Source: Thermodesulfobacteriota bacterium
GTDB lineage: Bacteria; Desulfobacterota_D; UBA1144; Nemesobacterales; UBA2774
Reading direction: 5' to 3'
DNA: 58,761 nucleotides
Assembly (NCBI GenBank): GCA_021604765.1
Contig: BQJP01000017.1
Coordinates: 1-58,761, forward strand
Positions 36,589-40,642 of this stretch are shown here, one piece after another; within the stretch, counting starts at the first letter, position 1; each line of letters starts with the position of its first letter. A model generated the notes under the pieces. That model was not told the origin of the DNA. It was given only the letters and a program-made list of their open reading frames with translations, and did not search any database. Both the position numbers and the translations under genes were made by a program.

Positions 36589-37227
36589 ATGAGAAATTTT
36601 CTAGTACTAAATATTTTGTTCTTATTTTTTATGGGCTTTCTTATAGTTTCCCACACATCTAACTCAGAGGATAAAATTACTTGTCCGGAGAAATGTGTCG
36701 AAAGTAGAAAGAACTGTAATCTTTCTTGCTCTCAAATAGTTGGTGGTGGCGCAAAGAGTAAGGAAAGAAGAGAGTGTGTGAAAAATTGCGGAGGGGAACA
36801 AGAATTATGCAATGAGAGATGTATAAATCCAACTCCTATGCCAACTCTCCAACCTGAGCGTTATCACGATAGGTCGTGCCCGAATGCTTGCGAACTTAAA
36901 GCGAAAGACTGTAATACGATATGTACCAAATATACCGGTGGGGGTGCTAAGAGTGATAAGAAGTCTACCTGTCGTCAAGAGTGTGGCGAGGGTTTAGAGA
37001 ACTGTAAGAATTGGTGTGTAAACCCAACTCCTCGACCTACTACAGCGCCTGATATTTATGATGGAGTTCGATGTGGGGATGTGTGCAAGAGCAAACTAAT
37101 GAACTGTGAAAAGACCTGCACTAAGTTTATTGGCGGAGGAGCTAAAAGTGGAAAGAGAACGGCGTGTATAAATGAATGTAAAGATTACAACGATGCTTGT
37201 ATAGATGACTGTTCTGAATCCAATTAA
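36589..37227 (+). CDS. Secreted protein with three eight-cysteine repeats
   Basis: A 212-aa exported protein. A signal peptide (hydrophobic LVLNILFLFFMGFLIVS, residues 4-20) precedes three modules at about 32-80, 93-141 and 154-205. Each has eight cysteines with identical spacing C-x3-C-x6-C-x3-C-x15-C-x3-C-x6-C-x3-C, and each x15 loop contains GGGAKS. Pro/Thr linkers (NPTPMPTLQP, NPTPRPTTAP) separate the modules. The spacing places four cysteines on one face of each of two helices, suggesting a disulfide-stapled helical hairpin or a metal-binding helix pair. I do not recognise the family. The protein stands alone, convergent with the DUF1622 gene. Confidence 0.75.
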   Translation: MRNFLVLNILFLFFMGFLIVSHTSNSEDKITCPEKCVESRKNCNLSCSQIVGGGAKSKERRECVKNCGGEQELCNERCINPTPMPTLQPERYHDRSCPNACELKAKDCNTICTKYTGGGAKSDKKSTCRQECGEGLENCKNWCVNPTPRPTTAPDIYDGVRCGDVCKSKLMNCEKTCTKFIGGGAKSGKRTACINECKDYNDACIDDCSESN

Positions 37228-37289: not shown

Positions 37290-37640
37290 TTACAGCCCAC
37301 TTTTCATTTCTTCTATTTCCTTGTTCAGGAAATAAGATAATACCGTTCTAATAAGAACAATGCCGCCTAGAAAAATTAAGTCTTCTGTTGTTTGATTAAT
37401 AACGGTTTTTATAATATCGGCCACTATCATGATTTCCAAACCAAGTAAGAGATAAGTTCCCAAGTAACATCTAATAGATTTTATATCGGTGCTGCTTAGC
37501 GTTTTATTTTTTATTCTCAGCACAAAAAAGTCATACATTGATTTAATGAAACCCCATAAGATAAATAATATTGCTACCAGGTCTATAATATCCGTTACCG
37601 GTGTAAAAATTGTTATAAGATGTTCCTCAAGATGAAACAT
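37290..37640 (-). CDS. DUF1622 family membrane protein
   Basis: A 116-aa protein with three hydrophobic segments. Blocks LVAILFILWGFIKSMYDF, RCYLGTYLLLGLEIMIVADIIKT and LGGIVLIRTVLSYFLNKEIE match DUF1622 (PF07784). Function is unknown. AGGAG precedes the ATG. It is the last gene of a three-gene minus-strand run with the DUF5996 gene and the Rieske-TPP gene, 38 bases after the former. Confidence 0.85.
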   Translation of the reverse strand: MFHLEEHLITIFTPVTDIIDLVAILFILWGFIKSMYDFFVLRIKNKTLSSTDIKSIRCYLGTYLLLGLEIMIVADIIKTVINQTTEDLIFLGGIVLIRTVLSYFLNKEIEEMKSGL

Positions 37641-37678: not shown

Positions 37679-38479
37679 TCATTTTGTACTTTCCATAATT
37701 TGATCATATGTATTTTGAAGATGATTTATGAGAGTCTCAGCAGGATTATCAGTCGTAATTAAGTCTTTATATTTTAATACTACTCCCTGCCATCCATCGG
37801 GGTTCCAATAAGCACCTTTTGCCAATGTGATATCAGATATCTTTTCAAGTTCAGGGTAGGCGGTTATATAAAAATAAGGCTCTTCTACTATTTCATCGCC
37901 TGTTAAATAACCAAAACCAATCTGGTCAATTTTTTTGTTTCCGTCCCCAGGATAGCAGACAAAGGCAATATCCATATGATGAGGCCATAGCTGAACTGGA
38001 CTGGTTTCTTGTTTAAGAGTTCCCTTAAAAGTTTTGAAAATCATATCAACCGCACTATAGGATCTGAAAATGTCACTGGCTGTATTCTGGTCATATACCA
38101 ATTCAGATTTATCTTGAAATTTCTCAATGTCGATATCGGGTTTAATGTTCATGTTTTCTAGTGCAGATAGGAGTTTGTTGGAGAAAGCTGAAACAGATTG
38201 ACCTAAAGGTATGCTTCGAACATTTCCAGTACTAGAGGATATATTGGCTAAGTGAGATATTAGATTAAGCGATATCTCAAAAGTATTGCCTTCCTCGTTT
38301 GGTATCGGTGTTGTTCTAAAACCTTGGGGACCCGTATGAAGACTAATATGCCAAAAGTCTTTTTGAGCCGGTGTCATTGTTGCTCTGATTGTGCCAATCA
38401 GTTTTGAGTATTGATGAATAGCATCAGTAGTTTGATGAATTTGATCGTAATCCAGTAGGGGTAATTTGATAGTAATCAT
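37679..38479 (-). CDS. DUF5996 family protein
   Basis: A 266-aa soluble protein matching the DUF5996 family (PF19459). It shows LIGTIRATMTPAQKDFWHISLH near the start and VDMIFKTFKGTLKQETSPVQLWPHHMDIAF in the middle, with a C-terminal YFYITAYPE block. The role is not known. Its ATG lies three bases after the Rieske-TPP stop, so the two are tightly coupled. That context is the only clue to function, and its link to the Rieske-TPP enzyme is inferred. Confidence 0.82.
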   Translation of the reverse strand: MITIKLPLLDYDQIHQTTDAIHQYSKLIGTIRATMTPAQKDFWHISLHTGPQGFRTTPIPNEEGNTFEISLNLISHLANISSSTGNVRSIPLGQSVSAFSNKLLSALENMNIKPDIDIEKFQDKSELVYDQNTASDIFRSYSAVDMIFKTFKGTLKQETSPVQLWPHHMDIAFVCYPGDGNKKIDQIGFGYLTGDEIVEEPYFYITAYPELEKISDITLAKGAYWNPDGWQGVVLKYKDLITTDNPAETLINHLQNTYDQIMESTK

Positions 38480-38482
38480 AAT

Positions 38483-40471
38483 CTATATTAACTCCACGTC
38501 TGCCATAATCTCGACTAATGAGAATTTCTTATGCTTCAGCGCTTTTCTAAGTGCCGGTCCTAATTCTTTCTTACTTGTAACCCTAATCCCTAGTCCCCCA
38601 CAGGAGGTTACAAAATCAGCGAAGTTTGGATTGTGAAGTGATGTCTGCCAAACTTCCCAGTTACCTGCCTTCTGTTCTTTACTAATTTTTCCAAGCTCTT
38701 TGTTGTGAAGGAGCACATGGGTGATGTTCATTCCGTACTTGACTGCTGTTGTGACATCTGCTAAATATTGACCAAATCCACCGTCTCCTGATACTGAAAC
38801 CACTTTCCGCCCCTTAAACTGAGGGTCGTCTTCCTGAGTTGCCGACCATGCCCCTAGAGCCGCCGGAAGTGAAAAACCAATAGAGCCAAGATACCCTGAC
38901 ATTAGTATGGCTTGGTTTCTGCATTCAAAGTATCTACCAAAAGAGTATGTATTGTTTCCAACATCAACAGCTATGATAGTGTCTTTAGAGACCAGCTTTG
39001 ATAGTTCTTCAAAAATATATGCAGAGTTTAATCCTAAACCCCTGTCGTCTTTTCTCCTGCTTTTCTTCTCATCTCTCCATATTGTCCAGCGTTTTGCTAT
39101 CTCTTTTCTTCTGTCTTTTGATTTTGCTTTACCCCTCACGGCTTTTGTTATGAGGTCCGCTGTAATTCCAATCTCTCCCCAAACAGGGACAGTAACCGAA
39201 TGAAACTTTGCAAGAGCCATATTGTCATAATCAACATGGATAATCGGTTTTTTAGAAGATATTCCAGTGTGATTACTAAAGCTTGCGCCAAAAACTAGAA
39301 GCAAGTCCGACTCATTCATAAACCAGCTAGCTATTGGAGTTCCGCTTCTCCCCAGAACACCACACCCAAGCGGATGATCGTCAGATATTAAACCCTTTCC
39401 TTTAAATGTAGTGAATACAGGGCATTTCAACATCTCGGCTAGCTTAATAATTGAATCCATATTAAAACGAGCGCCATGACCGACAATAATAGAAGGTCGT
39501 TCAGCATTTTTTAAAAGCTTAATGGCTTGATCAAGAGTTTCTTTCGGAGGACTGATTGTAAGTGGTGTCACTCTACCTTTCGGACTACCTGCTTTTGCTT
39601 TATCTGGCGCAGGAAGTGTTTGCACTTCATCAGGGAATACGAGATGAGATACTCCACGGTTTAAGATAGCGCTCTTTAGAGCTAAATTTATAAGTTCTGC
39701 ATGCTTACTAGAGTTAAGAACTGTTTGAGACCACTGTGCTACTTTTCCAAACGCAGCTTGCAAGTCTACCTCTTGAAAAGCTCCTGGTCCAAGCACCTGA
39801 GTATCAACCTGGCCGCTTAAGGCTAGCACAGGGCTTCTATCGACGTTTGCGTCCCAGAGGCCGGTTAATAGGTTGGTAGAACCCGGTCCTGCAATCCCGA
39901 GACACGCTGCGGGTCTGCCAGTGAGTTTCCCGTATGCGGAGCATGCGAATGCGGCGGCTCCTTCATGGCGTATACCGTAATAAGATAAATTCCCGGCTTC
40001 CTCCTGAATCCTGAGCGCATCTGCAAGACCCAAGTTGGAATGTCCTACCATTCCGAAGACTTGCCTGACTCCCCAATTGACCATGGTCTCAGCCATGATA
40101 TCAGTTACTGTGGCCTTATGTGCCCCTTCGTCTTCAAGGGCAACGTATATACCGTCGTCGCGTTCTTCAATTTCATATGTTGGCACGCCGTCATCAAATC
40201 CCCCAGGGGATTCACCGGTAATGGGGTTAAAGTCCCATCCGTGCCAGGGGCATCTTAAAAAGCCATTCTCTATTGAACCCTCACCCAAGGGGCCGCCTTG
40301 ATGAGGACACTTATTGTTCAAGGCACCGTACTCATTCTTGAAGCGGCTTAAGCATAAAGTGAGATTTCTACAAGTTCTGGTTGTAACTCTTCCTTCAGGA
40401 AGCTCTCCGTGTTCTAAGACTTTGTACCAGGATTTATGTACTTTGGATCTTTTTGAAGTTGTGGTCGCCAT
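38483..40471 (-). CDS. Rieske 2Fe-2S domain fused to a TPP-dependent enzyme
   Basis: A 662-aa fusion. Residues about 10-112 are a Rieske ferredoxin domain with C55-x-H57 (CPHQGG) and C74-x2-H77 (CPWHGWDF). Residues about 118-660 are a full pyruvate-oxidase/acetolactate-synthase-type enzyme: catalytic Glu170 in GIRHEGAAAF, a central domain, and GDGGFGQYLADVTTA for TPP-metal binding. The start ATG 40471 follows AGGAGG by eight bases. Such an enzyme decarboxylates 2-oxo acids; the Rieske cluster could carry the resulting electrons, replacing the usual FAD/quinone route. Product and acceptor are unknown. The gene leads an operon with DUF5996 and DUF1622. Confidence 0.85.
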   Translation of the reverse strand: MATTTSKRSKVHKSWYKVLEHGELPEGRVTTRTCRNLTLCLSRFKNEYGALNNKCPHQGGPLGEGSIENGFLRCPWHGWDFNPITGESPGGFDDGVPTYEIEERDDGIYVALEDEGAHKATVTDIMAETMVNWGVRQVFGMVGHSNLGLADALRIQEEAGNLSYYGIRHEGAAAFACSAYGKLTGRPAACLGIAGPGSTNLLTGLWDANVDRSPVLALSGQVDTQVLGPGAFQEVDLQAAFGKVAQWSQTVLNSSKHAELINLALKSAILNRGVSHLVFPDEVQTLPAPDKAKAGSPKGRVTPLTISPPKETLDQAIKLLKNAERPSIIVGHGARFNMDSIIKLAEMLKCPVFTTFKGKGLISDDHPLGCGVLGRSGTPIASWFMNESDLLLVFGASFSNHTGISSKKPIIHVDYDNMALAKFHSVTVPVWGEIGITADLITKAVRGKAKSKDRRKEIAKRWTIWRDEKKSRRKDDRGLGLNSAYIFEELSKLVSKDTIIAVDVGNNTYSFGRYFECRNQAILMSGYLGSIGFSLPAALGAWSATQEDDPQFKGRKVVSVSGDGGFGQYLADVTTAVKYGMNITHVLLHNKELGKISKEQKAGNWEVWQTSLHNPNFADFVTSCGGLGIRVTSKKELGPALRKALKHKKFSLVEIMADVELI

Positions 40472-40642
40472 TGAGCAATCCTCCTGACTCTCTTTATAAT
40501 ACAAATTTAGAGAAATATCAAAGACATTTCTTTGGTAATATAGGCCCGCACTTTCAGAATTAGATAGTTTTAATCACTAGAAAGTTGCTTAGTTGAAATA
40601 AATTTTGTATAAATGGGGCTAGGTCTCTGGGATTCTTGAATA

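Follow-up and report, generated by a model that had tools for sequence, protein, structure and literature searches.

The RieTPP Gene and Its Conserved Residues

The window, by which is meant the whole stretch of 58,761 nucleotides that was analysed, carries a gene (RieTPP) in which a Rieske domain is followed in the same frame by an enzyme dependent on thiamine pyrophosphate (TPP) (Table 1). Its ATG has a good ribosome site 8 nt upstream, and all 662 codons are open. Behind the Rieske domain Pfam finds TPP_enzyme_N (residues 121–239; 6.8e-31), TPP_enzyme_M (residues 313–438; 8.5e-32), which in pyruvate oxidases is the flavin-binding domain, and TPP_enzyme_C (residues 503–655; 2.6e-30). The PYR, central and PP domains, the catalytic Glu and the GDG...N motif (GDG at D563) place the protein in the superfamily of POX/AHAS-type TPP enzymes. 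The structure predicted by AlphaFold2 is confident over almost the whole chain (mean pLDDT 91.6; pTM 0.88).

Table 1. Features of the RieTPP operon in the window (58,761 nt) and, in the last line, genes for a membrane protein found at other RieTPP loci (L numbers).
Feature	Position	Strand	Basis
RieTPP: Rieske [2Fe-2S] domain + POX-like TPP enzyme, 662 aa	38483..40471	-	single frame, Pfam
Rieske domain, residues 14–87	40211..40432	-	PF00355, 4.5e-15
First Rieske ligand pair, C55-P-H57	40301..40309	-	conserved 89/89
Second Rieske ligand pair, C74-P-W-H77	40241..40252	-	C and H conserved 89/89
TPP N (PYR) domain, RHE170 and invariant H144-S-N	39755..40111	-	PF02776
TPP M domain, SFSNHTG in place of the oxidases' FP[YF]	39158..39535	-	PF00205, motif alignment
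TPP C (PP) domain, GDG and invariant LGKI[ST]KEQ	38507..38965	-	PF02775
Leader TTTGTATTATAAAGAGAGTCAGGAG, 25 letters before RieTPP	40481..40505	-	same letters upstream of DUF5996 in L125
DUF5996 protein, 3 nt after RieTPP	37679..38479	-	PF19459, 2.3e-45
DUF1622 membrane protein, third operon gene	37290..37640	-	PF07784, 1.7e-25
MsrQ-like membrane protein + Rieske	L106:4745-5785, L112:4802-5824, L053:9773-10822, L063:3553-4617, L084:11380-12483, L108:3451-5262

An earlier note on this DNA had described the gene as an intact Rieske domain joined to a complete TPP enzyme. The Pfam domains bear this out, and so does the alignment of 89 full-length RieTPP proteins, which all agree in the residues pointed out there: C55, H57, C74, H77, E170, and the GDG (D563). 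The spacing between H77 and E170 is 92–95 residues in 86 of them, the remaining three having failed the pattern. Equally invariant are H144-S145-N146 and K595 (in LGKI[ST]KEQ), of which H144 takes the position of the Asp in PoxB's GDS and K595 that of the Phe in PoxB's LGF. It is our guess that H144 and K595 would suit an anionic substrate.

Distribution and Origin of the Fusion

RieTPP is present in four of six congeners with 91–94% identity. It is also found with approximately 62% identity on closed haloarchaeal plasmids (Halorubrum, Halorarius, and Haloferax) and on the record of a linear Salinirubellus plasmid, and with 52% identity on a plasmid of Mycobacteroides abscessus (L031:5190-7780), where a cation:proton antiporter gene and a flavodoxin-family gene lie nearby. 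A scan of species genomes returned 559 stretches encoding RieTPP, the best 80 of which were examined as loci. All 80 are essentially full length and, going by the record titles, come from about 17 phyla: Acidobacteriota, Nitrospirota, Nitrospinota, Myxococcota, Gammaproteobacteria, Alphaproteobacteria, Gemmatimonadota, Planctomycetota, Cyanobacteria, Bacteroidota/Rhodothermales, Calditrichota, Ignavibacteria, KSB1, Omnitrophota, Verrucomicrobiota, Thermoleophilia, Halobacteria, and others. The fusion is widespread and conserved. Since the hosts include isolates (Halomicrobium katesii, Agaribacillus aureus, Xenococcus PCC 7305, and Leptothoe), a binning artefact is excluded, and the recurrence of the same fusion in congeners, on haloarchaeal and Mycobacteroides plasmids, in isolates, and in metagenomes excludes chance or an error of assembly.

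Within phyla the distribution is patchy: RieTPP was found in 18 of 347 Acidobacteriota and in 1 of 244 Cyanobacteria, this one being the search centre. Such a sporadic occurrence suggests that RieTPP spreads by horizontal transfer. In a maximum-likelihood tree the sampled TPP parts form a single clade (100/100; internal branch 1.49), and no member of the clade without the Rieske domain was found among the best 80 of the 559 loci or among the 18 Acidobacteriota matches (18/18 with the domain). As the TPP parts are monophyletic, the simplest reading of the tree is that the fusion would have arisen once and then spread.

Relationship to Known TPP Enzymes

The relation to pyruvate oxidases that had been pointed out before holds for the TPP part, whether judged by family models, by sequence, or by phylogeny. 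In the maximum-likelihood tree the RieTPP clade stands on a long branch beside POX/PoxB, whereas AHAS and glyoxylate carboligase lie elsewhere. The closest solved relatives by sequence are PoxB from Escherichia coli and PQO from Corynebacterium glutamicum, and in the comparison of folds plant AHAS ranks first, followed by PQO, POX, and PoxB (TM 0.8–0.9 on the target). The best NCBIfam model, PRK08611, gives 377.8 bits versus a curated cut-off of 742, i.e., about half, and PRK09124 gives 297 versus 792; no NCBIfam model names RieTPP. RieTPP thus scores below the equivalog cut-offs for pyruvate oxidase and PoxB, and its clade (100/100) is separate from POX/PoxB. A Rieske oxygenase was rejected, as Pfam finds nothing but TPP domains behind the Rieske domain and no mononuclear iron catalytic domain. 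Assignment to the 2-oxoacid:ferredoxin oxidoreductases (OFORs) was likewise rejected, no OFOR domain being found by Pfam, as was a defence system at the locus, for which there was no PADLOC match.

PoxB from E. coli, POX from Lactobacillus plantarum, and PQO from C. glutamicum share with RieTPP the three-domain TPP fold and the RHE and GDG motifs, and they make up the nearest clade. RieTPP differs from them in its N-terminal Rieske domain, in the replacement of FP[YF], and in lacking a membrane peptide of the PoxB type. Acetohydroxyacid synthase/acetolactate synthase has the same superfamily fold, but is non-oxidative, lies on its own branch of the tree, and has no Rieske domain. The OFORs, such as pyruvate:ferredoxin oxidoreductase (PFOR), resemble the proposed function of RieTPP in that electrons pass from hydroxyacyl-TPP to an iron-sulfur cluster; they are characterized as TPP/[4Fe-4S] enzymes in PMC5020499. 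They differ, however, in belonging to another TPP family, in having a low-potential [4Fe-4S] cluster, and in using CoA as acceptor.

No paper on a Rieske-TPP fusion, on a Rieske-glutamate synthase fusion (see below), or on DUF5996 was found in a search that covered mainly the open literature. Nor was a characterized homologue found. RieTPP therefore looks like an unstudied route for electrons out of an organic acid, and we rate it as a variant among the oxidative TPP enzymes, with an unusual set of partners.

Genes Associated with RieTPP

Neighbouring genes at the 89 RieTPP loci were clustered and then rescanned with HMMs. The most frequent partner (44 of 89 loci, e.g., L052:4559-6193, L046, L069, and 41 further ones) is RieGlt, a fusion of a Rieske domain with the FMN/3Fe-4S domain of glutamate synthase (Glu_synthase). 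Its gene lies mainly upstream of RieTPP on the same strand, the gaps being often less than 100 nt. RieGlt retains the Rieske ligands C50, H52, C69, and H72, has a C-x5-C-x4-C motif resembling the 3Fe-4S site of glutamate synthase, and contains no glutaminase domain. It was also matched in 35 of 50 genomes with RieTPP, most of the 50 having been picked because RieGlt was not adjacent.

The two proteins also occur together when presence in the genome is scored. Among the 347 Acidobacteriota there were 18 with RieTPP, 12 with RieGlt (matched from the N-terminus), and 9 with both (Fisher 5e-11; 8e-10 minus the search centre and 1e-7 minus the pre-chosen genomes), although it should be noted that these p-values overstate independence because the genomes come from related organisms. 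Cyanobacteria are a poor subject for such a test, the enzyme being too rare among them. Seven other Acidobacteriota genomes encode the glutamate synthase FMN domain but give no match to the Rieske portion, and two CDGSH motifs were present in all five of these proteins that were read. None of the seven has RieTPP; what tracks RieTPP is thus the Rieske tag and not the FMN domain. No other indirect evidence speaks as strongly for the Rieske domains mattering in the communication between RieTPP and RieGlt.

The five Rieske-less proteins that were read have the architecture of the type 5 CDGSH proteins, in which a CDGSH domain is joined to the glutamate synthase FMN domain (PMC3174974, whose text does not mention Rieske). 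In type 5 proteins and in RieGlt alike, the FMN/3Fe-4S domain stands behind a 2Fe-2S domain, but of different kind, RieGlt having Rieske in place of CDGSH, and of the two forms it is the Rieske one alone that accompanies RieTPP. The Rieske-glutamate synthase fusion is apparently undescribed, and parallels the known fusion of CDGSH with glutamate synthase (type 5 CISD). The CDGSH form is present in one congener of the window's organism (G001), where it is split over two overlapping frames (L124:6348-7879), either by a frameshift or by an error of assembly.

A second Rieske-tagged partner, a Ferric_reduct/MsrQ-like membrane heme protein with a C-terminal Rieske domain, is encoded in about 10 of the 89 loci (Table 1). 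Its gene is adjoined by an unannotated gene for about 260 amino acids, and a gene for about 90 amino acids lies nearby. The window's own genome contains neither RieGlt nor the MsrQ-like protein, but two free Rieske ferredoxins. The earlier suggestion that RieTPP might be a self-contained redox module is probably wrong, because in most of its relatives other Rieske-tagged proteins are encoded beside RieTPP or elsewhere in the genome.

An NhaP/CvrA-like cation/proton antiporter is encoded in 12 of the 89 loci, and carbonic anhydrase, malic enzyme, and a flavodoxin-like FMN reductase are rare. Beyond the families named here, no further recurrent Pfam family was found among 95 same-strand neighbours. 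The earlier note had also suggested that the DUF5996 and DUF1622 proteins might belong to the same system. DUF5996 proved to be a true partner, with linkage in 32 of the 89 loci, upstream and downstream of RieTPP about equally, so that the adjacency probably arose more than once. DUF1622, whose gene in the window begins 38 nt after that for DUF5996, was rejected as a general partner, being confined to the window's genus and two distant loci (L044 and L111).

The DUF5996 protein of the window, which scores 155.4 bits against a Pfam cut-off of 25 (PF19459), belongs to a divergent sub-group; at least one other linked copy (L059) gave no Pfam match. A canonical DUF5996 paralogue is encoded in the window's own genome (C21:28252-29121). 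The predicted structure is very confident (pLDDT 93.5), but nothing in the PDB matches it convincingly, the best hit (E 0.006) reaching only TM ~0.2, which allows no functional inference from the fold, and no credible sequence relative was found there either. To judge from their invariance, H167, D170, G190, D195, Y202, and Y204 look like a candidate active site. In a congener without RieTPP (G005; L125:3749-5658) the order NTPase, DUF5996, DUF1622 is kept and the leader stands before DUF5996, which shows that RieTPP, as the first gene of this DUF5996 operon, is removable. A further member of the taxonomic family that lacks RieTPP (G013; L126:149-2962) has the order NTPase, DUF5996, NhaP-type antiporter, which again ties this group of DUF5996 proteins to an antiporter. 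In congeners and in G013 the DUF5996 locus is adjoined, as in the window (36589-37227), by a gene for a probably secreted, cysteine-rich protein of 212 amino acids with three CPxxC...GGGAKS...C repeats and no Pfam match.

Proposed Function and Alternatives

Known first electron acceptors of oxidative TPP enzymes are FAD, [4Fe-4S] clusters, and lipoamide. Our preferred reading, in which we have about as much confidence as doubt, makes RieTPP a member of the POX branch that oxidizes a 2-oxo acid, with its own Rieske cluster as first acceptor, from which electrons pass on to Rieske-tagged partners or free Rieske ferredoxins. TPP, activated by E170, would attack the 2-oxo acid, which may be pyruvate, a related compound, or possibly a more anionic acid. 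After CO2 has left, the remaining carbanion would be oxidized by the Rieske cluster in two one-electron steps, the cluster rather than a flavin-quinone pair thus being the immediate acceptor. The reduced cluster would then be reoxidized by RieGlt or, in some lineages, by the MsrQ-like membrane heme protein with its Rieske tag; free Rieske ferredoxins would take their place in the window's own genome. The substrate, the direction of the electrons, the lack of a working flavin, and the relay to partners are what we infer; indeed, co-occurrence with Rieske-tagged proteins does not by itself give a direction. Against this reading it can be said that RieGlt and the MsrQ-like protein are missing from the window's own genome, that DUF5996 and the antiporters are not obviously proteins of electron transfer, and that DUF5996 persists in the congener lacking RieTPP.

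If the proposal is true, the Rieske cluster carried by the enzyme itself would add another type of acceptor, with a potential above that of ferredoxin-type clusters. Since RieTPP is linked to two more proteins with a Rieske tag, a redox pathway is indicated that extends over about 17 phyla, with cultured haloarchaea, cyanobacteria, and Bacteroidota among its hosts. Current annotation masks it behind labels like "thiamine pyrophosphate-binding protein" and "glutamate synthase-related protein." A wider version of this proposal, which we put forward tentatively and doubt more than we believe, sees a widespread, horizontally moving module wired by Rieske domains, in which a flavin-free TPP oxidase and RieGlt, with or without the MsrQ-like protein, exchange electrons, and DUF5996 is an accessory of new fold.

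Six oxidase-type proteins of the sister group have FP[YF] in their central domain, where all 89 RieTPP proteins have FS[ND]HTG, and the GL(I/L)G segment of the oxidases is changed to GRSG. RieTPP also lacks the membrane peptide found at the C-terminus of PoxB: the alignment stops at residue 526 of the 572 in PoxB, 6 residues before the end of RieTPP. These changes are suggestive of RieTPP having given up the flavin-quinone route, and they suggest this only, because the flavin domain is still there. Indeed, the completeness of TPP_enzyme_M and a fold close to those of the FAD enzymes PQO, POX, and PoxB are what speaks for FAD still being the first acceptor, as in PoxB, with the Rieske cluster replacing quinone by relaying electrons from FAD to protein partners. 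Given the change of both motifs, we consider this rather unlikely.

It is also unlikely, in our opinion, that the Rieske domain is a sensor of redox state or oxygen that turns a TPP enzyme of non-oxidative kind (decarboxylase, lyase, or ligase) on and off. The letters at the active site (H144, K595), which are unlike those of any family compared, would agree with such an enzyme, and antiporters, carbonic anhydrase, and malic enzyme as neighbours suggest stress physiology. However, the specific co-occurrence with Rieske-tagged redox proteins, together with the absence of the CDGSH-type glutamate synthase protein from RieTPP genomes of Acidobacteriota, fits an exchange of electrons better.

An inward flow, in which the Rieske partners feed RieTPP with electrons for reductive carboxylation or reductive acylation, appears very improbable. 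TPP/iron-sulfur oxidoreductases such as PFOR are reversible, and carbonic anhydrase adjoins RieTPP in three Nitrospirales loci. Against this, the nearest relatives of RieTPP are oxidases, and the potentials of Rieske ferredoxins, near −150 mV, are far too high for driving a carboxylation. Finally, the idea of an idle fusion without function, gained by neutral accretion of domains, has nothing direct in its favour apart from the sporadic occurrence of RieTPP (as in Cyanobacteria), and deserves hardly any credence, since loss of the domain was never seen and the cluster ligands are invariant over about 17 phyla.
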